Assembly: GCF_025460835.1 (NCBI RefSeq)
Contig: NZ_JAMXAY010000022.1
Coordinates: 1-64,000, forward strand
DNA length: 64,000 nt
Origin: Parapedobacter soli
GTDB taxonomy: Bacteria > Bacteroidota > Bacteroidia > Sphingobacteriales > Sphingobacteriaceae
Direction of reading: 5' to 3'
The notes under the pieces were generated by a model. It was not told where the DNA came from. It did no database searches and was given only the letters and a program-made list of their open reading frames with translations. Position 1 is the stretch's first letter. Every line of letters begins with the position of its first letter. A program made the position numbers and the translations under genes. This document shows positions 1-33,683 of the stretch, piece by piece.

Positions 1-1334
1 GGTAAGCTAAAATTCGATTACCCACACTATCCGTCATAGAGCCAAGTAAATACTTATTCGAAGCAAATTTCAGGTACGACGGTTCGTCTAGGTTTGCTGA
101 AGGAAATCAATGGGGCTTCTTCCCTTCATTGTCGGTAGGATGGCGATTGGATCAGGAAGATTTTCTAGCATCTCAAGATTGGGTCTCTGCGTTGAAATTA
201 CGGGGATCATATGGTGTATTGGGTAATCAAGATATTCCAAATTTCAGTTATGTCAATCTCATTCAAACGGGTCATGAATATTTGTTCGGCGGAAATGTAG
301 GGTCAGGGGTTGCCGTTACATCATTCCGGGATCCGAATATTACATGGGAAACAACAAAAATCAGCAACCTTGGAATCGATGCTTCATTGCTTAACAACCG
401 TTTTGACATCACAATAGATTTATACGACAAGCGAACGGATGATATCTTAAGACCGGTGAACTTGCCTGCACAAGTAGGTAACCTTGGCGGGCCGATAAAA
501 AATATTGGATCGGTCAAGAATGTGGGGTTAGATTTGGGAATCACCCATCGTAATAGGGTTGGAAGCCTAGACTATGGAATCAATTTAGGATTGAATTACA
601 ATATAAATGAAGTAACGAATTTGAATGGTGAAATTATCTATGGTGGAAACAAATTTATCACATTAGAGGGTTATCCCATAGATTCATATTTTGTTTTGGA
701 AAGCGACGGACTTTTCCAATCTGAAGCAGAAATCGAAGCCAATCCATTCCAGAACATTACAACTAAACCCGGTTACATTAAGTACGTAGACCAAAATAAT
801 GATAATGTCATTAATTCTGATGACCGGAAGGTCACCGGAAGTGTGTTGCCAGATTATACGTACAGCTTCGGATTTGATTTGTCGTATAGGCGTTTTAGTC
901 TGAATGCGTTTTTTCAAGGAGTCAAAGGTGTGAATACCTATCCGGAAGCCATTATCGCGATGCCATTCTGGTTTGCAACATCGGTAACCGAGAGATGGGC
1001 GAATGAATCCTGGACACCGGAGCGACCTAATGCGCCGTTGCCTATCCTGACGTCTTATGAAGACTCCCAAAATGATAACTTCCTCACCTCCGATTTTTGG
1101 TTGCTGGATGCATCTTACCTGCGGTTGAAGAACATCCAATTGGGTTATACCGTTCCAGAACGTTTCCTAAGCAAAATCGGGGTTAGCCGATGCATGTTCT
1201 TCGTTAACGGGCAAAACGTGTTGACTTTCTCGAAGATGAATGACTTCGATCCAGAAAGGAATGTAAAACAGGCCAACTACTATGAATATCCATCGGTAAA
1301 AATGTATACTGCCGGAATCAATCTGACTTTTTAA
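1..1334 (+). CDS. SusC/RagA-type TonB-dependent outer membrane receptor, 3' part
   Basis: C-terminal barrel half of a SusC-family glycan importer, the outer membrane pore that pairs with the SusD lipoprotein encoded next. The stretch FEANFRYDGSSRF near position 57, the late barrel segment LRLKNIQLGYTVP and the ending TAGINLTF are typical of SusC. The gene enters from the left edge, so the signal peptide, plug and first strands are outside the window. The frame is open only from position 6. The expected upstream residues (GKLKFDY) are readable in another frame at 1-21, so about 20 extra bases (22-41) appear to break the frame. The gene may therefore be inactive, or the edge may contain an error. 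It is followed after 10 bp by susD, and the two surely form one operon with the sulfatases. Confidence 0.88.
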
Positions 1335-20059: not shown

Positions 20060-22030
20060 ATGAAACCAAAAAAATGTCTCTTATGGGTGGCAGCCGTCGC
20101 GGCGGTATCGCTATCTTTCAACGCTTGTCGGCCCAAAGGTGCCGGGAGCGCGGTATCAGGAAACGCAGCCCAGCGGACGTATGTGCCCCCAGGGCAGTAC
20201 GATGAGTTTTACACATTCACATCCGGTGGGTTCAGCGGGCAGATGAGTGTGTATGGATTGCCCAGTGGTCGGTTATTCCGGGTAATACCCGTGTTTTCGG
20301 TCGACCCCGAAAAAGCATGGGGGTTCAGCGAAGAAACCAAGCCTATGCTGATGACATCACATGGCTTCGTGCCTTGGGATGACCTCCACCACATCGAATC
20401 GTCTTTTACAGACGGCATGCCCGATGGCAAGTGGATGTTTGCAAACTCCAACAACACACCGCGGTTGGCGAGGATCGATTTAACGACTTTCCGTACGGCC
20501 GAAATCATTGAAATACCCAATACCGGCGGGAACCACTGTTCGCCATTTACCACCGAAAACTCCGAGTATGTCATTGCGGCAACCCGCTTCAGCGTACCGC
20601 CCGACGGACCGGAGAGCGACGTGCCCATCGACTCCTATAAGGAGAATTTCAAAGGGCATATCAGCTTTGTAAGTGTGGATAAAGAAACCGGCGAATTCGA
20701 TATTGCGTTCCAGCTAAAAACACCAGGACTCAACTTCGACTTGTCGAGCGCCGGAAAGGGCGTGTCAAACGGATGGCTGTTTATCAGCTGCTATAATTCA
20801 GAACAAGCCCATACGTTGCAGGAGGTTAATTCCTCACAAAACGATAAGGACTTCATCATGGCCATCAACTGGAAGAAAGCCGAAGAGTATTTCAAGGCCG
20901 GACGAGGCACGGTGCAAACCAACGTGCGTTATGCCCATAACAAATGGGATGAACATACCCACAGCGCTACCTCCGAAATAAAAACCGAGGTAACCGTATT
21001 GGATGTGGCTGATTTTGACGACTTGGCTTACCTGATCCCGTGTCCGAAATCACCCCACGGTGCTGACGTGAATCCAACCGGTGAGTATATCGTCGGTAGC
21101 GGGAAGCTGGCTGCACTGATCCCAGTGTTCAGTTTTGCAAAATTGCAGGATGCTATCGCCAACAAGGATTTTGAAGGTGAAAAGTATGGCGGCATACCTG
21201 TAGTGAAATATGAGTCTGCACTGCATGGCGAAGTTCAAAAACCAGGATTGGGCCCGTTGCACACCGAGTTTGATGCAAAAGGAAATGCCTACACGTCTTT
21301 CTTCGTTTCGTCAGAAGTAGTGAAATGGAATGTGGAGTCGCTCGAAGTACTTGATAGGCAGCCTACCTACTATTCCGTAGGTCACCTGATGGTGGCTGGC
21401 GGGAACTCCAAGAATCCGTATGGTAAGTATCTGGTGGCTTACAACAAAATAACGAAAGACCGCTTCTTACCTACTGGGCCGGAGCTCTGCCACAGCGCAC
21501 AGTTGTTTGACATCAGTGGCGACAAAATGGAATTACTGCTTGACTTCCCAACGATCGGGGAGCCACACTATGCGCAGTCTATTCCGGCCGATATGCTGAT
21601 GGATAAATCGCTGAAGATATATGATATCAATGCCAACCAGCACCCCCATAAGACGAATGGCGAAGCCGAAGCGCGCGTAGAGCGCGACGGGAATATTGTG
21701 CGGGTATACATGACCACCATCCGGTCTCACCTCACTCCAGACGTTATCGAAGGGATCCAGTTGGGCGACGAGGTTTATTTCCACGTTACCAACATCGAGC
21801 AAGATTGGGATATGCCTCACGGGTTTGCTATCAAAGGGGCAAACAACTCTGAACTGCTGATCATGCCCGGCGAAACGACAACGCTCAAGTGGGTACCAGA
21901 CCGCGTAGGTATCTTCCCCTTCTATTGTACGGATTTCTGCTCCGCATTGCACCAAGAGATGTCTGGTTACGTGCGGGTATCACCTAAAGGAAGTAATGTG
22001 CCCATTACGGCCTATACCGGTACAAAATAA
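20060..22030 (+). CDS. nosZ: nitrous oxide reductase, clade II (Sec-exported)
   Basis: Reduces N2O to N2 in the periplasm, 656 aa. The N-terminus has no twin-arginine motif. It is a Sec/lipoprotein-type signal with possible lipobox FNAC (Cys23), as expected for clade II. The seven CuZ histidines are all visible: His110-His111 (DLHHIES), His159 (GGNHCSP), His333 (PHGADVNP), His401 (GPLHTEF), His478 (LCHSAQ) and His503 (EPHYAQ). The C-terminal cupredoxin domain holds the CuA site Cys623, Cys627, His631, Met634 (CTDFCSALHQEM). No denitrification gene (nirS/K, norB) is in the window, so N2O reduction without full denitrification is possible. Confidence 0.98.
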   Translation: MKPKKCLLWVAAVAAVSLSFNACRPKGAGSAVSGNAAQRTYVPPGQYDEFYTFTSGGFSGQMSVYGLPSGRLFRVIPVFSVDPEKAWGFSEETKPMLMTSHGFVPWDDLHHIESSFTDGMPDGKWMFANSNNTPRLARIDLTTFRTAEIIEIPNTGGNHCSPFTTENSEYVIAATRFSVPPDGPESDVPIDSYKENFKGHISFVSVDKETGEFDIAFQLKTPGLNFDLSSAGKGVSNGWLFISCYNSEQAHTLQEVNSSQNDKDFIMAINWKKAEEYFKAGRGTVQTNVRYAHNKWDEHTHSATSEIKTEVTVLDVADFDDLAYLIPCPKSPHGADVNPTGEYIVGSGKLAALIPVFSFAKLQDAIANKDFEGEKYGGIPVVKYESALHGEVQKPGLGPLHTEFDAKGNAYTSFFVSSEVVKWNVESLEVLDRQPTYYSVGHLMVAGGNSKNPYGKYLVAYNKITKDRFLPTGPELCHSAQLFDISGDKMELLLDFPTIGEPHYAQSIPADMLMDKSLKIYDINANQHPHKTNGEAEARVERDGNIVRVYMTTIRSHLTPDVIEGIQLGDEVYFHVTNIEQDWDMPHGFAIKGANNSELLIMPGETTTLKWVPDRVGIFPFYCTDFCSALHQEMSGYVRVSPKGSNVPITAYTGTK

Positions 22031-22053
22031 ATAACGTGGGAAGTCAACATCCT

Positions 22054-22632
22054 ATGAAGTCATTGCACAGAGCCATACTCGTTATCAGCGGGTTGGCTCT
22101 GCTTGCAGTCATCATATTGCCGATATGGCGTATTGAGTTGGACGCAGCCCAATACCCCGAAGGGCTCGAACTGTTGATCTATAGTTATAAACTCGACGGG
22201 CACGTCGATATAATCAACGGGTTGAACCATTATATCGGAATGAAAGTACTCCGTGCTGATGATTTCATTGAGTTCACAGTACTACCCTATTTGGTCGGTA
22301 TCTATGGCCTTGCCTTTATCTTGGTCGGGCTTGTCGGAAGGCGCCGGTGGTTGTATGTGTTGTTTGGTGCGTTCCTGCTGTTCGGAATCGTAGCTATGGT
22401 CGATTTCTGGCGCTGGCTGTACGAATACGGGCACGATCTCGACCCGACAGCACCCATACAGGTGCCCGGCATGGCATACCAGCCGCCCCTGATCGGGTTT
22501 AAACAGCTCCTCAACTTCGGTGCATTTTCAATACCCGACATCGGAGGTTGGATATTTATTTCGTGTGGTGTGCTGCTGGCGTATTGCGTGTATGCCGAGT
22601 GGCGCCCCTTAAAAGCAAAACAGATATCATGA
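22054..22632 (+). CDS. membrane protein between nosZ and nosL (NosB-like)
   Basis: 192-aa inner membrane protein. The ATG at 22054 is preferred over a GTG at 22036. There are about four hydrophobic segments: AILVISGLALLAVIILPIW, LPYLVGIYGLAFILVGLVG, WLYVLFGAFLLFGIVAMVDFW and a C-terminal helix ending WRPLK. Other notable pieces are WRIELDAAQYPEGLELLIY and GLNHYIGMKVL. The position directly after nosZ fits the NosB-type proteins of clade II clusters, whose function is unknown. Identity as NosB is inferred from context and topology. Its TGA overlaps the nosL ATG (ATGA). Confidence 0.72.
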   Translation: MKSLHRAILVISGLALLAVIILPIWRIELDAAQYPEGLELLIYSYKLDGHVDIINGLNHYIGMKVLRADDFIEFTVLPYLVGIYGLAFILVGLVGRRRWLYVLFGAFLLFGIVAMVDFWRWLYEYGHDLDPTAPIQVPGMAYQPPLIGFKQLLNFGAFSIPDIGGWIFISCGVLLAYCVYAEWRPLKAKQIS

Positions 22633-23075
22633 AGGTAATTCGGTTGTTAAGTATATTCACATTCGGAATCGTGCTGGCACTGGCCGCACAGGCCTGCGGT
22701 AGCGACGGCCCTACACCGATCAACTACGGCCACGAACAGTGCGCCCATTGTAGGATGACCGTCAGCGATGCGCGTTTTGGATGCCAACTGGCAACCAAGA
22801 AGGGACGTGCTTATAACTTCGACGATGTGCAGTGCATGGTCGCGTTTGTGAAGGCCGGTGGTGTTGCCGAAGAAGAAGTGGCAAAGTTCTATCTGCCGGA
22901 CTACAGTAATTCGAATGAATTACTCCCCTCGGAAGGGCTTTTCCTGTTGAAAAGCGAATCGTTGAAAAGCCCGATGCGCGGTGATGTCGCCGCATTTGCC
23001 AGTAAAGAAGATTTAATGAAGGTGCAGGAGGTCCACGGTGGCGAGGAGCTAACGTGGGACGAGTTATGGAAGTAG
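22629..23075 (+). CDS. nosL: NosL copper-binding lipoprotein
   Basis: 148-aa outer membrane or periplasmic lipoprotein that supplies Cu(I) to apo-NosZ. Signal peptide with lipobox AQAC; Cu-site CAHCRM (Cys38, Cys41, Met43) and RFGCQLATKKGRAYNFDDVQCM typical of NosL. Start by overlap ATGA with the preceding gene, so translation is coupled. It precedes nosD by 15 bp. Confidence 0.93.
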   Translation: MKVIRLLSIFTFGIVLALAAQACGSDGPTPINYGHEQCAHCRMTVSDARFGCQLATKKGRAYNFDDVQCMVAFVKAGGVAEEEVAKFYLPDYSNSNELLPSEGLFLLKSESLKSPMRGDVAAFASKEDLMKVQEVHGGEELTWDELWK

Positions 23076-23090
23076 GAGAGGTAGGGAAAG

Positions 23091-24338
23091 ATGAGGAGGG
23101 GGATTTATATTGTTTTTAGTGTGTGTGTTTCCCTGATGGTGGGCGGCATGGCGCATGCCGCTACCATTCAGGTTGGCACATCATACCCAGTTAAATCCAT
23201 CAAGCAGGCCTTGGAAAAAGCAGCGGACGGAGACACCATCCGAGTGCATGGTGGGACCTATCGCGAGGGTAATATTGCCATCCACAAGAGCGTAGCGCTG
23301 ATGGGAGTGGACAACCCGGTAATAGATGGTGAAAAGGAACATGAACAGTTTTCCGTTTTTGTGCCCTATGTAACGATAAACGGATTTACCGTTATAGCAT
23401 CGGGCAAATCGTCGATACGGGATATCGCGGCGATAAAGGTCTACGATACCCACCACGCGACAATTGAAAACAACATCCTCGACGATAACTTCTTCGGTAT
23501 CTATATACAAAGCTCCAAGCAGTGCACGATACGGAACAATAAGCTCACCGCCTACGGCGAAACCGAGCAGCTTACCGGAAACGGCATACACAGCTGGAAA
23601 AGTGATAGCCTCTATATCGCGGGCAATACGATTGTTGGGCACCGCGATGGAGTGTACCTGGAGTTTGTAACACACACGGAGGTGCGCGACAACCAGGCGC
23701 TGGATAATCGCCGGTATGGGTTGCATTTTATGTTTTCGCACCAAAACGGCTATTATCACAATACATTTTCCAGAAACGGTGCCGGCGTAGCGGTGATGTA
23801 TACCAAACAGGTGCGCATGGAAAACAATACCTTCAGCGAAAATTGGGGTGATGCGGCGTATGGGCTGTTGCTTAAAGACATTACCGATAGTCACATAGAG
23901 CATAATGTGTTTTCACGGAATACCACAGGGATACTGATGGAAGGGAGCAACCGCGTGCAAATACAGCGTAACCAATTTGAAGGGAATGGGTGGGCGCTGA
24001 AAATGCAATCCAGCTGTATGGACAACGAGCTCACGCAGAATAACTTTGTGCAAAACACATTTGATCTGGCTACTAACGGCTCGTTGAAACTCAATAGGTT
24101 TATACGCAATTATTGGGATAAATACGAAGGGTACGATCTCAACAAGGACCGGGAGGGAGATGTCCCATACCGGCCTGTTAGTCTGTTTTCGATGGTAGTA
24201 GAGAAGTATCCGATGGCCATGCTGCTGTTCCGTAGCTTCATGGTTACGCTGCTCGACCGTACCGAACGGGTGGTACCCAGCCTGATACCGGAAGATTTAA
24301 AAGATGATGCCCCGATGATGAAGCCTGTAGCATTATGA
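23091..24338 (+). CDS. nosD: NosD periplasmic copper-maturation protein
   Basis: 415-aa periplasmic protein with a Sec signal ending AHA and a right-handed parallel beta-helix made of repeats with Asn ladders (IENNILDDNFFGIYIQ, IRNNKLTAYG, MENNTFSENWG). It works with the NosFY ABC transporter in building the CuZ centre of NosZ. The C-terminal NRFIRNYWDKYEGYDLN and DVPYRPV are NosD features. Its end overlaps nosF by 4 bp. Confidence 0.95.
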   Translation: MRRGIYIVFSVCVSLMVGGMAHAATIQVGTSYPVKSIKQALEKAADGDTIRVHGGTYREGNIAIHKSVALMGVDNPVIDGEKEHEQFSVFVPYVTINGFTVIASGKSSIRDIAAIKVYDTHHATIENNILDDNFFGIYIQSSKQCTIRNNKLTAYGETEQLTGNGIHSWKSDSLYIAGNTIVGHRDGVYLEFVTHTEVRDNQALDNRRYGLHFMFSHQNGYYHNTFSRNGAGVAVMYTKQVRMENNTFSENWGDAAYGLLLKDITDSHIEHNVFSRNTTGILMEGSNRVQIQRNQFEGNGWALKMQSSCMDNELTQNNFVQNTFDLATNGSLKLNRFIRNYWDKYEGYDLNKDREGDVPYRPVSLFSMVVEKYPMAMLLFRSFMVTLLDRTERVVPSLIPEDLKDDAPMMKPVAL

Positions 24339-25066
24339 TTACGATTCAACACATATCCAAAAGGTTTGGAAAACTGCAGGTGCTAAATGACGTTTCGCTC
24401 ACCCTGGAGGGAGGGCAGTGCATCGCATTGATTGGCCCGAATGGCAGCGGAAAAACCACATTGATTAAAACCATACTGGGTATGGTGGTGCCGCAATCGG
24501 GTACGTTGCTCTTTAAAGGTAACCCCATTGGACGACAATGGGAGTACCGGCGCGATATCGGATATATGCCGCAGATCGGCAGATATCCGGAAAACATGAC
24601 CATTGGCCAGGTGCTGGACATGATGCAGGATATCCGTAAAGTGCCGGAAGCCGCATTGGATAGGGAGCTTTTTGAAGTCTTCGAACTCCACACGATGTTA
24701 GACAAGCGTATGGGTACGCTGTCGGGTGGCACAAGGCAAAAGGTCAGCGCCTGCCTGGCGTTTATGTTCAGGCCCGAAGTACTTATCCTCGACGAGCCCA
24801 CGGCGGGACTCGATCCGGTGGCCACCGAGTTGTTGAAAGATAAAATCCTGGCGGAGAGAAATAAAGAGAAGTTGATTGTTATCACATCGCACGTATTGAG
24901 CGACCTGGATGAGCTGGTCACTGAAGTGGTGTATATGCAGGAAGGCCGCCCGCTGTTCCACAAATCGCTCGATGCATTGAAGGAAGAAACAGGTACCGAT
25001 AAACTTGGAAAGGCGATTGCAAAAGTGATGACCAACGAAGAACCAACGAAAGGGGTTTCCGTATGA
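24335..25066 (+). CDS. nosF: NosF ABC transporter ATPase
   Basis: 243-aa cytoplasmic ATPase of the NosDFY maturation complex. Walker A GPNGSGKTT (residues 34-42), signature LSGGTRQKVSACLA, Walker B LILDEPTAGLD and the H-loop TSHVLSDLDEL are complete. Four-base overlaps with nosD and nosY show translational coupling. The likely cargo is a sulfur species for CuZ, by analogy with studied NosDFY. Confidence 0.95.
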   Translation: MITIQHISKRFGKLQVLNDVSLTLEGGQCIALIGPNGSGKTTLIKTILGMVVPQSGTLLFKGNPIGRQWEYRRDIGYMPQIGRYPENMTIGQVLDMMQDIRKVPEAALDRELFEVFELHTMLDKRMGTLSGGTRQKVSACLAFMFRPEVLILDEPTAGLDPVATELLKDKILAERNKEKLIVITSHVLSDLDELVTEVVYMQEGRPLFHKSLDALKEETGTDKLGKAIAKVMTNEEPTKGVSV

Positions 25067-25830
25067 ATAAAATCATCAAATACGTCATCGCAGACTTGCT
25101 CCGCAGCAGGGCAATATTGGTGTACGCTGTCGTATTATTCGTTTTGGCCGGCAGTGTATTCAGCATAGAAGACAATGCCGATAAAGGCGTGGTGAGCTTG
25201 CTGAACATCATCTTGTTTGTGGTACCGCTGGTGAGTATTATTTTTTCTACGGTATACCTATATAATAGTGCGGAATTTATCGAATTGCTGGTGAGCCAGC
25301 CGCTGAAGAGGAAGACGATATGGCTTAGTATATTTACCGGATTGGCCGGTACCATGGCACTCGCCTTTCTAATCGGCGTAGGTATACCGATCGTGCTTTA
25401 TTCATTCACCCCCTCGGGCATGATATTGTTGCTTTGCGGAACGATACTTTCTGTCGTTTTCGTATCGGTGGCGATGTGGGCCGCTGTGCGTATCCGCGAT
25501 AAAGCAAAGGGGATAGGCCTATCCATATTGTTGTGGCTCTATTTCGCATTGCTTTTTGACGCATTAGTATTGTTTATCTTATTCCAGTTCTCGGACTATC
25601 CGATTGAAAACGGGATGATTGCCGTATCCATGCTGAACCCGATTGATATCAGCCGGATATTGATTTTATTGCAGGTAGATCTATCAGCAATGATGGGGTA
25701 TACTGGTGCTATATTCCGGAATTTCTTCGGAACAGGGTGGGGCATGGCGATAACGGCCTTGGTGTTGTTGCTGTGGGTTGCTGTTCCGGCATGGTTCTCA
25801 ACGAGGTTTTTCGAGCGGCGGGACCTTTGA
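25063..25830 (+). CDS. nosY: NosY ABC transporter permease
   Basis: 255-aa inner membrane permease with six predicted helices, partner of NosF. It is recognised by NosY-like order and segments (IIKYVIADLLRSRAILVYAV at the N-terminus, YNSAEFIELLVSQPLKRKTIW between helices). It is the last gene of the nos operon. No terminator-like hairpin is evident in the 150 bp that follow. Confidence 0.93.
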   Translation: MNKIIKYVIADLLRSRAILVYAVVLFVLAGSVFSIEDNADKGVVSLLNIILFVVPLVSIIFSTVYLYNSAEFIELLVSQPLKRKTIWLSIFTGLAGTMALAFLIGVGIPIVLYSFTPSGMILLLCGTILSVVFVSVAMWAAVRIRDKAKGIGLSILLWLYFALLFDALVLFILFQFSDYPIENGMIAVSMLNPIDISRILILLQVDLSAMMGYTGAIFRNFFGTGWGMAITALVLLLWVAVPAWFSTRFFERRDL

Positions 25831-25888
25831 TGGTAAAGGCAAATCGACCTAGCTATTCAGGTAAGATGTGTGTAGTAGCGCAATGAAA

Positions 25889-25943
25889 TGACAACATAGT
25901 GTCAAAAAATAAAGTTGTAAATAAATAAAGGACAAAAATGTCC
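25889..25943. promoter_or_regulatory. two dyads 40 bp apart upstream of ric
   Basis: TGACA-N6-TGTCA (25889-25904) and GGACA-AAAA-TGTCC (25930-25943) are both perfect 5+5 dyads sharing the core GACA...TGTC. Their centres are 40 bp apart. The second lies 36 bp before the ric ATG and looks like an operator. The spacing differs from the Crp/Fnr-type sites elsewhere in this island, so a separate nitrosative-stress regulator is possible. Confidence 0.5.
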
Positions 25944-25979
25944 GATATTAGCAAGTGTTTAACAATAAACGGTGTAATC

Positions 25980-26936
25980 ATGATTAAAACAGCAGTACTG
26001 GATGTTACGCAGATCGAACCGCGGCTAAAACATCCCACGATTTTCGAGCATTTCGATGCGTTGGAGCAAGGCGAAAGCTTCATCATCCACAACGACCATG
26101 ACCCGCGCCCCCTTTATTACCAATTGCTGGGCGAACGTGGCAATATTTTCACTTGGGATTACCTGCAATCGGGTCCCGACGTCTGGGAAGTGCAGATTAC
26201 CAAACCCGCTAAGGAGCAGGCTGAAGAGACTGTCGGCGAGATTGCGGCAAAGGATGTGCGTAAGGCTGACGTTTTCAAGAAACTGGGTATCGATTTCTGC
26301 TGCGGCGGCAAGCTCACGTTGAAAGAGGCAATAGCCGAAGCGGGTCTGGACGAAGAAGAAGTCAAGGCCGCATTGGCGCGCTCGGAAGCAGCGGGCGGCG
26401 GGCAGGCTACACACGATTTCGACTCATGGGACTTAGGTTTCTTGGCAGACTATATCTATAACGTACACCACAAGTACACGCGCGAGAACGGCCCGATCAT
26501 CGAGCAGCTTGCTGATAAGGTTGCATCGCGCCACGGCAATACCCACCCCGAATTGTTTGAACTGGCAAAAGGAGTGAAGGTTTTGATGGAAAACCTGTAT
26601 AGCCACCTCCAAAAGGAAGAGCGGGTGTTGTTTCCGGCAATCAAAACATTGGAGAGCAGCGGTGAGCGCGCACAGATGACGGTAGGAATTGAAGGGCCGG
26701 TGCATATGATGGAAGCTGAACATGATGATACAGGCGATGAGCTCAGAGAGCTTAGGAGGCTGACCAAAGGGTATGAACTGCCGGCCGATGCTTGCAACTC
26801 ATACACCTATCTCTTCGATAAAATCAAGGAGTTTGAGGATGACCTCTTCCAACATATCCATTTGGAAAATAATATCCTGTTCCCCAAGGCATTGAAGCTG
26901 GAGAAAGAACGCCTCAGCAATGCTGATGCGGTATAG
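25980..26936 (+). CDS. ric: iron-sulfur cluster repair di-iron protein (RIC/YtfE/ScdA) with N-terminal DUF2249
   Basis: 318-aa cytoplasmic protein that repairs Fe-S clusters damaged by NO or oxidants. The ATG at 25980 is chosen because the upstream ATG at 25938 lies inside a dyad. Residues about 5-75 form DUF2249 (LDVTQIEPRLKHPTIFEHFD). Next is the ScdA_N motif KADVFKKLGIDFCCGGK (Cys107-Cys108), then a hemerythrin-like four-helix domain with its His/Glu ligands (YNVHHKYTRENG, HLQKEERVLFPAI, MMEAEHDDTGDEL, HIHLENNILFP). Its place after nos fits protection during N-oxide respiration. Confidence 0.95.
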   Translation: MIKTAVLDVTQIEPRLKHPTIFEHFDALEQGESFIIHNDHDPRPLYYQLLGERGNIFTWDYLQSGPDVWEVQITKPAKEQAEETVGEIAAKDVRKADVFKKLGIDFCCGGKLTLKEAIAEAGLDEEEVKAALARSEAAGGGQATHDFDSWDLGFLADYIYNVHHKYTRENGPIIEQLADKVASRHGNTHPELFELAKGVKVLMENLYSHLQKEERVLFPAIKTLESSGERAQMTVGIEGPVHMMEAEHDDTGDELRELRRLTKGYELPADACNSYTYLFDKIKEFEDDLFQHIHLENNILFPKALKLEKERLSNADAV

Positions 26937-26963
26937 GCCAGTCAAAGGCATAACAGCGATGGT

Positions 26964-27015
26964 TGCGGCGGGTGATGGCGCCGCAGGTCACGTTGGCATG
27001 GGGGTCAACGTGACC
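26964..27015 (+). other. two abutting hairpins between ric and the DUF59 gene
   Basis: Hairpin 1: TGCGGCG (26964-26970) with CGCCGCA (26979-26985). Hairpin 2: GGTCACGTTG (26986-26995) with CAACGTGACC (27006-27015). Both stems are perfect and no base separates them. A short T-rich stretch (CTTTTA) follows a few bases later. It may be a terminator of the ric transcript or a processed RNA element. Confidence 0.65.
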
Positions 27016-27044
27016 AACTTTTAATAATCCCCCAACAACGACAG

Positions 27045-27374
27045 ATGGAAATAAAACTCAATGACCCGTTTGCCGCCGAATTACTCAAAACACAGACGGC
27101 GCTGATGCAGGTGATCGACCCCGAGCTCTGTGTCAATATCGTTGACCTCGGTTTCATCTATGGCGTCGATTTTACAGATGCGGCGAAAGTAAAGGTAACC
27201 ATGACCCTCACCACACCCGGCTGCCCCATGGGCGGCGCTATCGTAAACGGGGTGGAAAACGCGCTGGGGGCCGCTTTCCCCGATCGCCAAACCGAAATTG
27301 AGGTTGTCTGGGAGCCTTCCTGGAATTACGATATGATCTCTGACGAGGGAAAAATACAGATGGGACTGGAATAA
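27045..27374 (+). CDS. DUF59 / MIP18 family Fe-S assembly protein (SufT/PaaD-like)
   Basis: 109-aa cytoplasmic protein. The family core VIDPELCVNIVDLGFIYGVD, VTMTLTTPGCPMGGAIVNGV and the C-terminal VWEPSWNYDMISDEGK are all present, with the reactive Cys in the TPGCPMG loop. Such proteins help transfer Fe-S clusters to target enzymes. Its place after ric, and before a Cys-containing unknown protein, suggests a small Fe-S maintenance group. Separated from ric by a structured 108-bp gap. Confidence 0.9.
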   Translation: MEIKLNDPFAAELLKTQTALMQVIDPELCVNIVDLGFIYGVDFTDAAKVKVTMTLTTPGCPMGGAIVNGVENALGAAFPDRQTEIEVVWEPSWNYDMISDEGKIQMGLE

Positions 27375-30690: not shown

Positions 30691-30736
30691 TTGTGCGTAT
30701 GGTCATAAAGCCTACTTCCATAGTGGGGTACTTTTG
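30691..30736 (+). promoter_or_regulatory. nrdD promoter with Crp/Fnr-like site
   Basis: The -7 box TACTTTTG (30729-30736) ends 5 bp before the nrdD ATG, predicting +1 near 30740 and almost no leader. The 18-mer TTGTGCGTATGGTCATAA (30691-30708) is centred 40 bp upstream. Its right half GTCATAA is the exact complement of a TTATGAC half-site. Confidence 0.55.
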
Positions 30737-30741
30737 TGTGT

Positions 30742-32865
30742 ATGGAAAAATACGTTATCAAACGAAGTGGCGCCTATGAGCCGTTTATGCCCTACAAGAT
30801 CAGCGATGCGATCGCCAAGGGGTTTGAAAGTGTATCGCAGCCGCTGGACCCGGAGGTTGGCGATGCGGTGATGGAATCGCTAAACCAAAAGGACACCTGG
30901 GCGGTGGAAGAGATCCAAGATTGTATCGAGAAGGCACTCTACGATAGGGGGCACTTCGAAGCCATGCGGTCGTTTATGCTATACCGCCATACGCGGAAAC
31001 TGCAGCGGGAACATATCCACGGCTTTAATGAAGATACCACTTACGTGGATAGCACACAGACTATCGAGGAATACATCAGCCAAACCGATTGGCGTATCAA
31101 TGCGAATGCGAATGTCTCCTATTCCAGTGCCGGGCTGATAAACAATACCGCAGGAAAGGTAATCGCCAATTACTGGCTGGATAAGGTGTACAGCAAGGAA
31201 GAAGGATATGCCCACCGTAACGGCGATATCCATATTCACGACTTGGATTGCCTTACCGGGTATTGTGCAGGATGGAGCCTGCGGGTATTGCTCGACGAAG
31301 GGTTCAACGGTGTACGTGGCCGCGTAGAAAGCAGACCCCCCAACCATTTCAGGGAAGCATTGGGGCAGATGGCCAATTTCCTGGGTATTTTGCAAAGCGA
31401 ATGGGCTGGGGCACAGGCATTCAGTTCGTTCGATACCTACCTCGCACCTTATGTGTTCAAAGATCGGCTACCTTATGTCGAGGTGCTGAAGGCTATACGT
31501 AGTTTTGTATATAATGTGAACGTGCCGGCCCGATGGGGACAGTCGCCCTTTACCAACATTACTTTGGACTGGAATGTGCCGGATGACTTAAAGGATCAGA
31601 TACCTACAAAGCGGACTGCACACCTCTTTGCAGGTATACAGGATGAAGCATTACTCCGCTTGGCCCGGCAGCGCGGGGCAGACACGTTGGAAGACCTCTG
31701 CTATAAGCACTTCCAGCCGGAAATGGATGTAATCAACAAAGCATACTATACCGTAATGACGGAAGGGGATGCCAATGGACAGCCATTTACGTTCCCCATT
31801 CCTACCGTCAACATCACCGAAGATTTCGACTGGGAAAGCGAGAACGCTACGCTATTGTTCGAAAATACAGCGAAGATCGGCTCTTCCTATTTCCAGAACT
31901 TTGTGGGAAGCCAGTATATGCTCGACGAGTCGGGTAACCGGGTGGAGAACCCCGAAGCGTATAAGCCCAACGCCGTGCGCAGCATGTGCTGCAGGCTGCA
32001 ACTGGATCTCCGCGAGCTGCTTAAACGGGGTAACGGGCTGTTCGGCAGTGCGGAGATGACCGGCAGCATCGGCGTGGTCACCGTCAACATGGCCCGCCTC
32101 GGTTATCGCTATAAAGGAAACAAGGCGGGTCTCTTTAAGCAGCTCGACCATTGGCTTTACCTGGCAAAATCAACCTTGGAGAAAAAACGGAAGTTCATCC
32201 AGGAATTGTACGATAGGGGGCTGTACCCCTACACCAAGCGCTACCTGCCGCATTTCCGCAACCATTTCTCGACCATCGGCGTCAACGGGATGAATGAGAT
32301 GATAAGGAATTTTTCCGAAGATAAGCTGGATATCGTGTCGGATGAAGGTATGGCCCTGGCCACGGAAATCCTGGAACACATCCGTAACCGTATGCGGGAG
32401 TTTCAGGAAGACACCGGAAACCTATATAACCTGGAGGCCACACCGGCCGAAGGGACGACATACCGCTTCGCCAAAGAGGACAAAAAGCGGTTCCCGGATA
32501 TCCTGCAGGCGGGACAGGGCGAGAATATTTACTATACCAACAGCTCGCAGTTACCGGTAGACTATACCGAAGACCCGTTCGAAGCGTTGCTGTTGCAGGA
32601 TAGTCTCCAGTGCAAGTACACGGGTGGTACGGTGTTGCACCTGTATATGAGCGAACAGATCAGTTCGCCCGATGCTTGCCGCAACTTTGTGCGGACGGTA
32701 ATCAGCAATTTTAAATTGCCTTATATCACCGTTACACCGGTATTCAGTATCTGCCCCGTGCACGGCTACCTTAATGGAGAGCACGAATACTGCCCTAAAT
32801 GCGACGATCTTATTTTAGCAACTCACCAACATACAATACAAGATGACTACACAACAGCAACATGA
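30742..32865 (+). CDS. nrdD: anaerobic ribonucleoside-triphosphate reductase, large part lacking the glycyl-radical motif
   Basis: Class III ribonucleotide reductase for dNTP synthesis without oxygen, 707 aa. An ATP-cone (residues about 1-95), the ten-stranded barrel with the thiyl cysteine motif RSMCCRLQLD (Cys416-Cys417), and the C-terminal zinc site CPVH...CPKC (Cys671, His674, Cys684, Cys687) are visible. The protein then ends 20 residues later (ILATHQHTIQDDYTTAT) without the RxxGY glycyl-radical motif that normally follows the zinc site almost at once. That motif is found in the next, overlapping reading frame. The ATG at 30742 is favoured over a GTG two codons earlier. Predicted near-leaderless. 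Confidence 0.95.
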   Translation: MEKYVIKRSGAYEPFMPYKISDAIAKGFESVSQPLDPEVGDAVMESLNQKDTWAVEEIQDCIEKALYDRGHFEAMRSFMLYRHTRKLQREHIHGFNEDTTYVDSTQTIEEYISQTDWRINANANVSYSSAGLINNTAGKVIANYWLDKVYSKEEGYAHRNGDIHIHDLDCLTGYCAGWSLRVLLDEGFNGVRGRVESRPPNHFREALGQMANFLGILQSEWAGAQAFSSFDTYLAPYVFKDRLPYVEVLKAIRSFVYNVNVPARWGQSPFTNITLDWNVPDDLKDQIPTKRTAHLFAGIQDEALLRLARQRGADTLEDLCYKHFQPEMDVINKAYYTVMTEGDANGQPFTFPIPTVNITEDFDWESENATLLFENTAKIGSSYFQNFVGSQYMLDESGNRVENPEAYKPNAVRSMCCRLQLDLRELLKRGNGLFGSAEMTGSIGVVTVNMARLGYRYKGNKAGLFKQLDHWLYLAKSTLEKKRKFIQELYDRGLYPYTKRYLPHFRNHFSTIGVNGMNEMIRNFSEDKLDIVSDEGMALATEILEHIRNRMREFQEDTGNLYNLEATPAEGTTYRFAKEDKKRFPDILQAGQGENIYYTNSSQLPVDYTEDPFEALLLQDSLQCKYTGGTVLHLYMSEQISSPDACRNFVRTVISNFKLPYITVTPVFSICPVHGYLNGEHEYCPKCDDLILATHQHTIQDDYTTAT

Positions 32866-33025
32866 CCTGGTTTTGCAGCAAAATCAGGGGGAACGAAGCA
32901 AATGCTTGGTTTACACGAGAGTAATGGGGTACCACCGTCCGGTAGAGAGTTTCAATATCGGAAAGAAGGGTGAACATCGGCAACGTACGCATTTTACCGA
33001 ACGCCGTGCCAACACCCATCTATAG
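32843..33025 (+). CDS. separate glycyl-radical peptide of the class III ribonucleotide reductase
   Basis: 60-aa ORF in the +1 frame relative to nrdD, overlapping its last 23 bp. Residues 21-36 read CLVYTRVMGYHRPVES, followed by FNIGKKGEHRQRTHF. This is the C-terminal end normally fused to NrdD (C-x-VY-x-R-V-x-GY-x-RPV), with Gly29 as the radical-bearing glycine. A Gln-rich N-terminus (MTTQQQHDLVLQQNQGERSK) replaces the direct fusion. The gene therefore looks like a true split subunit, analogous in principle to the autonomous glycyl-radical cofactor GrcA of pyruvate formate-lyase. Less likely, a +1 programmed frameshift joins it to NrdD. It overlaps nrdG by 56 bp. Confidence 0.82.
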   Translation: MTTQQQHDLVLQQNQGERSKCLVYTRVMGYHRPVESFNIGKKGEHRQRTHFTERRANTHL

Positions 33026-33683
33026 CATCACCCCTTTTACGTTATTGGATTATCCCGGTAAGACAGCCTGCATCCTTTGGTTTGCAGGCTGTAATATGCA
33101 CTGCACGTATTGCTACAACCCCGATATTGTGCTGGGCAAAGGCCGGATGTCCATTGAAAAAGCACTGGAGTTCCTGCGGTCGCGCAAAGGGTTGTTGCAG
33201 GGCGTGGTACTGAGCGGAGGGGAATGCACGTTACACCCAACGATTTTCCCATTGCTTGAGGCAGCGAAAGCGTTTGGTTTTGAGGTAAAGATCGATACCA
33301 ATGGCTCGCGGCCCCAAGTACTGGAGGCGCTGATTGCACAAGGGCTTATTGATTACGTAGCCCTCGATTTCAAGGCGTTGGAGCAACGTTACCACGCCAT
33401 TACAAAATCGGGGCTATTCCCCCAATTCACAGCAAGCTTGTCGTTGCTCAACCGGTCGAACGTCCCGTTTGAGGTACGTACCACTGTGCACAGTGACCTG
33501 ATCACGACAGCCGATTTACAGCAGATGGTCCACTTTCTGCAGCAGCACGATTACCGGGGCTCCTATTATATCCAGCATTATGTAAATGGTGTGCCCGTGC
33601 TCGGTGAGCTCGGCCGGTCGGTGAAACATGCGCGCCTGTCGGAGCTGTCGGTCGATGGCATCGAAGTGGTGGAGCGCGGTTGA
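32970..33683 (+). CDS. nrdG: anaerobic ribonucleoside-triphosphate reductase activating protein (radical SAM)
   Basis: 237-aa radical SAM activase that would place the glycyl radical on the NrdD system. The CxxxCxxC cluster motif is CNMHCTYC (Cys41, Cys45, Cys48), preceded by ITPFTLLDYPGKTACILWFAG as in NrdG/PflA-like activases (TIGR02495 type). GGE motif: VVLSGGECTLHP. The GTG at 32970 is used here, and another GTG at 33006 is possible. Either overlaps the glycyl-radical peptide gene, implying coupled translation of nrdD, the peptide and nrdG. Confidence 0.92.
   Translation: MNIGNVRILPNAVPTPIYSITPFTLLDYPGKTACILWFAGCNMHCTYCYNPDIVLGKGRMSIEKALEFLRSRKGLLQGVVLSGGECTLHPTIFPLLEAAKAFGFEVKIDTNGSRPQVLEALIAQGLIDYVALDFKALEQRYHAITKSGLFPQFTASLSLLNRSNVPFEVRTTVHSDLITTADLQQMVHFLQQHDYRGSYYIQHYVNGVPVLGELGRSVKHARLSELSVDGIEVVERG

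Follow-up and report, generated by a model that had tools for sequence, protein, structure and literature searches.

Organisation of the nrdD locus

In the glycyl-radical enzymes that we know of, the radical glycine and the catalytic cysteine share one chain. The locus described here lies in a 64,000-nucleotide stretch of Parapedobacter soli (contig NZ_JAMXAY010000022.1, positions 1 to 64,000, hereafter the window), where the anaerobic (class III) ribonucleotide reductase (RNR) NrdD is spread over two open reading frames (ORFs) that are followed by the gene of its activase, NrdG (Table 1). The nrdD core comprises an ATP-cone, a barrel with Cys177, Cys418/Cys419 and Asn451, and a zinc site. An alternative in-frame ATG at 30742 gives a protein of 707 aa, and this start underlies the Cys416/417 numbering of an earlier note on the same DNA. 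The peptide ORF lies in the +1 frame relative to nrdD with a 23-bp overlap, and it contains RSKCLVYTRVMGYHRPVESFNIGKKGEH, in which Gly29 is encoded by GGG at 32927-32929. The end of the peptide ORF is in turn overlapped by the start region of nrdG; the ORF list starts this gene at 32970, while comparison with relatives made GTG 33006 the likelier start.

Table 1. Features of the split nrdD locus, in positions of the window.
Feature	Position	Strand	Remarks
nrdD core	30736..32865	+	709 aa from GTG; TGA stop at 32863; PF13597, PF03477, NF006126
Zinc site CPVHGYLNGEHEYCPKC	32752..32802	+	C673, H676, C686, C689; all four in 55/55 rows
New C-terminus of the core DDLILATHQHTIQDDYTTAT	32803..32862	+	Proposed docking segment; 20 residues past the zinc site, then TGA
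Glycyl-radical peptide ORF	32843..33025	+	60 aa; segment MTTQQQHDLVLQQNQGE at the N-terminus and NrdD tail KCLVYTRVMGYHRPVESFNIGKKGEH
nrdG (NrdG2-type radical-SAM activase)	33006..33683	+	TIGR02495 E 2e-57; GTG 33006 start proposed

According to the earlier note, nrdD lacks a glycyl-radical motif and ends shortly past its zinc site, and the missing tail with Gly29 is found in the overlapping 60-codon ORF. Both statements were confirmed by the ORF coordinates and by the profile PF13597 (NRDD, 562 positions), which was shared out between the two frames: positions 2-528 matched the 709-aa ORF (E 1.5e-163) and positions 529-562 matched the 60-aa ORF (E 6.5e-7). Because the large and the small ORF cover the profile in a complementary manner, the tail ORF is not a chance reading frame. 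The large protein also matched the ATP-cone family PF03477 (E 7.3e-16) and NF006126 with 1077.3 bits (cut-off 548). The active-site Cys177 of the first strand, the radical pair Cys418 and Cys419, and the four zinc ligands were kept in all 55 aligned split and fused NrdD sequences, and Asn451 of the sixth strand in 54 of them. The NRDD barrel domain, the ATP-cone and the NrdG encoded alongside are those of class III, and the glycyl-radical motif was absent from the core's own chain and present in the separate ORF. In the whole genome (G000; 5.17 Mb, 177 contigs), the tail occurred once, together with one match to PF02867 (class I/II RNR large subunit); the PFL-type Gly_radical domain PF01228 had no match in this genome. 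The core (~80 kDa) thus retains the catalytic cysteines, the ATP-cone and, of the glycyl-radical domain, the zinc half, and the radical-bearing half is in the small ORF. The locus therefore very probably encodes a two-chain class III RNR, as judged from sequence, in which the glycyl radical would be carried by a separate, possibly replaceable peptide.

Conservation of the split within the genus and family

A recent frameshift mutation or an assembly error, either of which would leave nrdD a broken gene, would be expected to give a stop codon with the tail continuing in a different frame. The core was searched for in 60 genomes, the window's own included, and eight matched, one of them (G053) only via the first 90 residues. 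A separate tail ORF was found in all six relatives with a full-length core, four from the genus (G003, G004, G006 and G007) and two from the family (G023 and G027), so that the two-ORF layout that the earlier note suggested looking for is the rule in this group. The tail of G027 lies in the other frame with an ATGA overlap, and in G006 about 200 bases separate the core stop from the tail ATG, with the tail ORF intact. A 140-base stretch of the G006 insert recurs at eight other places of that genome (one near full length at 73%, seven over 31-59 bases), and therefore the insert looks like a repeat element. The small ORF starts at a conserved ATG in the window and in four congeners; the nearest named relative among the matches listed was Parapedobacter defluvii (92%).

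Codon differences were then counted over 30 codons of the tail in the ten pairs formed by five congeneric genomes. Each pair showed 11-17 synonymous vs 1-3 nonsynonymous codon differences, a pattern which indicates that the tail ORF is under purifying selection. This selection, the conserved new segments on both halves described below, and the occurrence of the layout in the six relatives and in other phyla all argue against a broken gene, and the fact that the layout recurs leaves no room for an assembly error; the chance that nrdD is simply damaged here is close to negligible. The contention that no simple sequencing indel would create this arrangement therefore held, since the layout is repeated across independent genomes in which the frame relation differs, a congener has the insert of ~200 bases, and elsewhere the genes lie far apart.

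Distribution among Bacteroidota and Campylobacterota

The named-genome set (L010-L089) consisted of the best 80 of at least 502 relatives found by the core. The taxa among the matches listed included Flavobacterium, Algoriphagus, Cyclobacterium, Mariniradius, Balneolaceae, Sulfurimonas, Sulfurospirillum, Sulfuricurvum, Campylobacteraceae, Nautiliaceae and others. Four of the 80 contigs (L049, L068, L084 and L087) broke off within the core or directly behind it. Among the 76 that could be judged, none was fused and 75 had a separate tail ORF within ~1 kb. L077 had no tail in the 3,994 bases downstream; the tail of its genome was located on another contig, next to an nrdG-like ORF. Relative to the core, the tail of 74 loci was in frame +1 in 44, +2 in 18 and 0 in 12, and in three of these loci the motif lay more than 300 bases from the core; L073 and L074 had other ORFs in between. 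Twelve genomes were reached via the loci, and the tail was present in ten of them. One contig (L014), filed as a Bifidobacterium breve metagenome-assembled genome, carried a Flavobacterium-like split nrdD, and this placement is probably a binning error.

The tail profile (A3) matched 23 of 395 genomes in the Bacteroidota sample, the window's own genome included. The matches were bimodal: ten were in frames of 56-92 aa with E ≤4e-29 (split), eleven were in frames of 714-805 aa with E 1e-11 to 3e-8 (fused), and two were weak. In the Campylobacterota sample the tail was matched in 129 of 298 genomes, 126 of which had short frames only, the long frames being those of G523, G599 and G702. Sixty Campylobacterota genomes were then chosen by hand, and not at random, with many multi-copy genomes, the fused ones and others among them. 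The core was present in all 60, and none had more than one intact NrdD core at E 1e-50 or better, a threshold that a distant NrdD could escape. The tail lay within 600 bases of the core in 48 (three of these fused), at 0.8-1.8 kb in six and far away in six. Of the far tails, that of G448 was on another contig and those of G537, G651, G658, G670 and G719 were at least 60 kb off, on the opposite strand in G537 and G651; the distances in G658 and G719, calculated on the assumption of closed circular contigs, were ~130 and ~68 kb. In the four far tails that were read (L254, L258, L260 and L262), the adjacent ORF was nrdG by eye. In the genome G681 (C1:1340791-1342883), a second copy of NrdD was divided within the barrel into two pieces that overlap, and a tail peptide followed directly behind them.

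These layouts bear on a programmed +1 frameshift near the overlap, which would yield one fused NrdD. The tail of the window is indeed in the +1 frame, the stop context is TGA-C, and several congeners have similar DNA at the overlap. However, relatives carry the tail in the other frame, in the same frame past a stop, after gaps or an insert, behind other ORFs or at least 60 kb away, and a conserved frame relation with a shift site was not found among the three frame relations, the gaps and the distant loci. We also know of no slippery site of the form ACA-TGA, and regard programmed frameshifting as highly improbable. Frameshifting, sequencing error and a pseudogene were all rejected on the grounds of recurrence, varied frames, distant loci and purifying selection.

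It is also conceivable that both pieces are made and that the peptide serves mainly as a repair part for damaged enzyme and not as an obligate subunit. Extra and phage copies of the peptide exist, and there is an analogy with GrcA, which is reported to rescue a complete enzyme (PMC8683613). Against this, the cores of the split clade lack a glycyl motif within their own chain and the 60 chosen Campylobacterota genomes hold at most one intact core each, so that no radical site would exist without the peptide. A mere repair role is, therefore, very unlikely.

Phylogenetic analysis

A tree was inferred from 70 chosen rows and 668 core columns with quick IQ-TREE and midpoint rooting, the tail having been removed from every row except one. 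An alignment that mixed joined, core-only and tail-only rows (A4) was dropped, as it placed tails, 22-36% identical to the query, on the core. The tree contained one clade of 54 rows (SH-aLRT 99), made up of 51 split and three fused cores. The remaining 16 rows were 15 fused NrdD and one viral split, L211, and the tree needs at least four changes between split and fused. Placements with long branches (L241, L192, L232, L235, L165 and L211) were unsure. In L211 (415-4797), the viral NrdD ORF of 1461 aa is apparently interrupted by an insertion and has its tail in another frame; it is possibly an independent split.

The conserved joint between core and peptide

Six to 11 residues join the zinc site to the YxRxxGY of the tail in fused NrdD (n=18), whereas in split NrdD (n=74) the core continues for 8-30 residues past the zinc site. 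After the last zinc cysteine, this added segment has D at +1 in 74/74 rows, then E in 59, and L or I at +4 in 74/74. The peptide shows a comparable pattern ahead of its own cysteine (n=74), with R at -3 in 74, K at -1 in 71 and L at -10 in 69. The short conserved segments on both halves suggest that core and peptide form a docking pair. The '~40 unrelated residues' that the earlier note saw between the halves thus exist as extra residues, but they are not simply unrelated, as each piece carries a short conserved segment.

Structural modelling

An AlphaFold2 model was obtained for the Sulfurimonas pair L058 as one chain, with the in-frame stop read as a residue and six joining residues. The joined model reached a pLDDT of 88.0 and a pTM of 0.83. 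Ten-residue blocks over the tail (701-754) scored 79-92, and the radical glycine, residue 729 by our count, was placed between two strands. Superposition on the Prevotella copri NrdD (8p2s_B) gave Z 32.9 and an rmsd of 2.7 over 556 aligned residues, with 79..752 on 85..735, these ranges, here and below, being the first and last aligned residues only. The model was also superposed on 1h7b (Z 32.6, rmsd 2.5, to residue 736) and on 4u3e_B (Z 31.3, rmsd 3.0, to 754). The glycyl-radical domain of the P. copri enzyme is given as 676-739 with Gly711 (PMC11226230). As the superposition spans this domain, the peptide tail could occupy the place of a fused tail. A search of the PDB with the tail profile returned nothing up to E 1, which, for so short a profile, is no argument against homology.

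Plasmid-borne loci and a hint of function

Twenty-eight plasmid records matched; 11 were opened and nine had a core with a separate tail, namely Cupriavidus necator H16 pHG1, C. metallidurans, Bradyrhizobium, Sulfuricystis, Azospira, Aquabacterium, Paracoccus, Cereibacter and the Campylobacterota member Sulfuricurvum. The split thus extends to the Pseudomonadota. A Thiothrix plasmid had the tail and nrdG, with no core found by the screen. The Allochromatium plasmid pALVIN01 carried the tail without a core; in this record (L206 3501-3710, Allochromatium vinosum), the lone tail peptide adjoins a CHAP-domain gene and is possibly a phage remnant. Small ORFs of the tail kind are already named 'nrdD' in plasmid records, and hence the genes themselves are on record. 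On pHG1, 142 bases lie between the two ORFs and AAGGAG precedes the small one, which encodes 66 aa; a second C. necator H16 record matches in the same way. NrdDG is stated to be essential for complete denitrification in C. necator H16, in a paper citing Siedow 1999 (PMC2864759). As the H16 NrdDG is the one split on pHG1, this report is the best available indication that a split NrdD may function in a cell.

Proposed mechanism and evidence weighing against it

In the two-chain enzyme, the core ORF and the peptide ORF would be translated as separate chains, and NrdG would install the radical on the peptide, at Gly29. The peptide loop would enter the barrel next to Cys418/Cys419, like the C-terminus of a single-chain NrdD, and the docking would be held by the segment pair, DE-x-[LI][LI] past the zinc site of the core and [ILV]L-x6-R-[TSQ]-K-C in the peptide. 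Catalysis may then follow the formate-type class III route with Asn451. As oxygen cuts the chain at the glycyl radical, a separate ~7 kDa peptide could be replaceable, and after oxygen damage the cell would renew this peptide and not the whole enzyme. Such cheap replacement would suit facultative anaerobes and denitrifiers, and phages with a lone peptide would provide it in trans, sustaining host deoxynucleotide (dNTP) synthesis.

Several observations weigh against this interpretation. The tail was not found in G449 and G454 (the genomes of L068 and L087), two of the 12 genomes reached via loci. The three fused cores inside the split clade are Campylobacterota NrdD; L251 lies near the base of the Bacteroidota-Campylobacterota part, and L252 and L253 lie within a Campylobacter group, a nested position which makes re-fusion the likely origin of these two. 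The radical-cysteine loop of the L058 model was poor, with pLDDT values of 67, 55 and 58 for the blocks over 411-440, and a single-chain model shows compatibility, not binding in trans. The rationale of replacement after oxygen damage is one that we infer. Moreover, a Shine-Dalgarno-like sequence preceded the candidate tail ATG in only 3 of 43 Bacteroidota and Balneolota loci, which is no commoner than the background of 0.08-0.12 per single random ATG. The translation of the window peptide thus rests on the conserved ATG and frame. Bacteroidota seldom use Shine-Dalgarno sequences.

Elsewhere the signal was found ahead of the tail in 32/32 Campylobacterota loci, 10/10 plasmid loci and 21/37 viral loci (37 of 46, the motif being unrecognised in nine), counts that lean toward hits in comparison with single random ATGs, as any candidate ATG up to 45 residues from the motif was accepted. 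The coupled, stoichiometric translation suggested in the earlier note fits the overlaps of nrdD, peptide and nrdG in the window, but it cannot be general, because some tails are set off by gaps, have Shine-Dalgarno sequences of their own or lie at distant loci.

Comparison with known systems

Single-chain NrdD, as in Prevotella copri, Thermotoga maritima and Streptococcus thermophilus, has the same barrel, ATP-cone, radical cysteines, formate-type Asn, zinc site, RxxGY tail and NrdG, but its zinc and glycine halves are in one chain and not in two ORFs. The sequence evidence supports the proposal of an evolved two-piece enzyme and a GrcA-like mode of working: the tail is encoded by a separate gene, at distant loci as well, and is predicted to act in trans. 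However, homology ties the peptide to the NrdD tail, which leaves GrcA as no more than an analogue: the peptide matches PF13597 alone and not the PFL-type PF01228, to which GrcA belongs. GrcA/YfiD of Escherichia coli and Y06I of phage T4 are likewise small separate proteins with a glycyl-radical motif that serve a large enzyme, in host and phage versions (PMC8683613, PMC12338860). The large subunit of the split NrdD differs in having no glycine of its own, and for this reason the peptide looks obligate and not merely a repair part.

The split class II RNR NrdJa-NrdJb of Pseudomonas aeruginosa, a free-living bacterium, is likewise encoded by two genes within a single operon, but it belongs to another class, and the part split off there mediates thiol-disulphide exchange, whereas here it bears the radical motif; it has been called the only split RNR found in a non-viral organism (PMC4520616, 2015). 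Phage RNR genes in pieces (Aeh1 nrdA, and six interrupted phage nrdD in PMC3653736) are separate ORFs too (PMC3653736, PMC2988022). These are attributed mostly to elements present in single phages (homing endonucleases, introns or inteins), with the three-piece nrdD of phiAS4 unexplained. The split described here is, in contrast, an old break conserved over phyla, and no such element was seen at the loci read. Among spare-part proteins, a 2021 paper names only two as validated, both for PFL, with others speculated (PMC8683613). Neither a split NrdD of cellular origin nor viral NrdD tails occurring alone were found described in the open-licence literature as far as it was accessible; Siedow et al. 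1999, on C. necator nrdDG, may describe the small ORF.

Viral copies of the tail

The tail profile matched 53 loci in IMG/VR. Several of the viral tail contigs were near-duplicates, their lengths included 183, 177, 81 and 73 kb, and virus contigs may be fragments. Forty-eight were checked whole with PF13597 and 47 matched; the core was also present in two (L165 and L192), so that 46 of the 48 had the tail without an NrdD core. The match was confined to the region near the C-terminus in 45 (G779 with a second weak piece), and L172 matched the tail profile and had no PF13597 match. In five of the 45 (G790, G791 and G800-G802) the match extended upstream through stop codons, and these tails may be remnants. 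The INPHARED phages held almost nothing of the tail kind, with two records, L208 and the ANMV-1 virus, the latter having a 145-aa form of the peptide. L208 (1530-3938) and several of L213-L237 are fused phage NrdD with, by eye, a glutaredoxin/thioredoxin-like extension past the glycyl tail.

The genes next to the viral tail in L152, L158 and L171 had endolysin domains above the cut-off (Amidase_2, SLT and Glyco_hydro_108), and holin matches beside the same tails were below it. Extra chromosomal tails of Campylobacterota stood among phage-like genes in L256, L257, L266 and L264, and by eye in L265; L264 shares ORFs with the virus contig L171. The window peptide matched PHROG 4132 (E 1.9e-8), whose function is unassigned there, as did all five viral peptides given.

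We tentatively consider, at somewhat less than an even chance, that the glycyl-radical half is a general exchangeable cofactor. It would be an obligate renewable subunit in an old NrdD lineage, and in many hosts, single-chain-NrdD hosts among them, a phage auxiliary gene, in some cases beside lysis genes, that restarts or keeps up host dNTP synthesis in trans. With the radical-bearing part as a natural separate gene in many species and with free viral copies, the system opens tests of the radical on a free peptide, of docking, of the swap after oxygen damage and of phage use. A function is likewise suggested for PHROG 4132, as well as for NrdD annotations of truncated appearance.

Neighbouring genes

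Upstream of nrdD, positions 20060-27374 of the window encode a Sec-dependent nosZ, nosD, a DUF2249/ScdA_N/hemerythrin protein and a SUF-type metal-sulfur assembly protein. The neighbourhood of the split nrdD on C. necator pHG1 also holds a metal-sulfur assembly factor and a DUF2249 gene, hinting at an anaerobic-respiration module common to the two.

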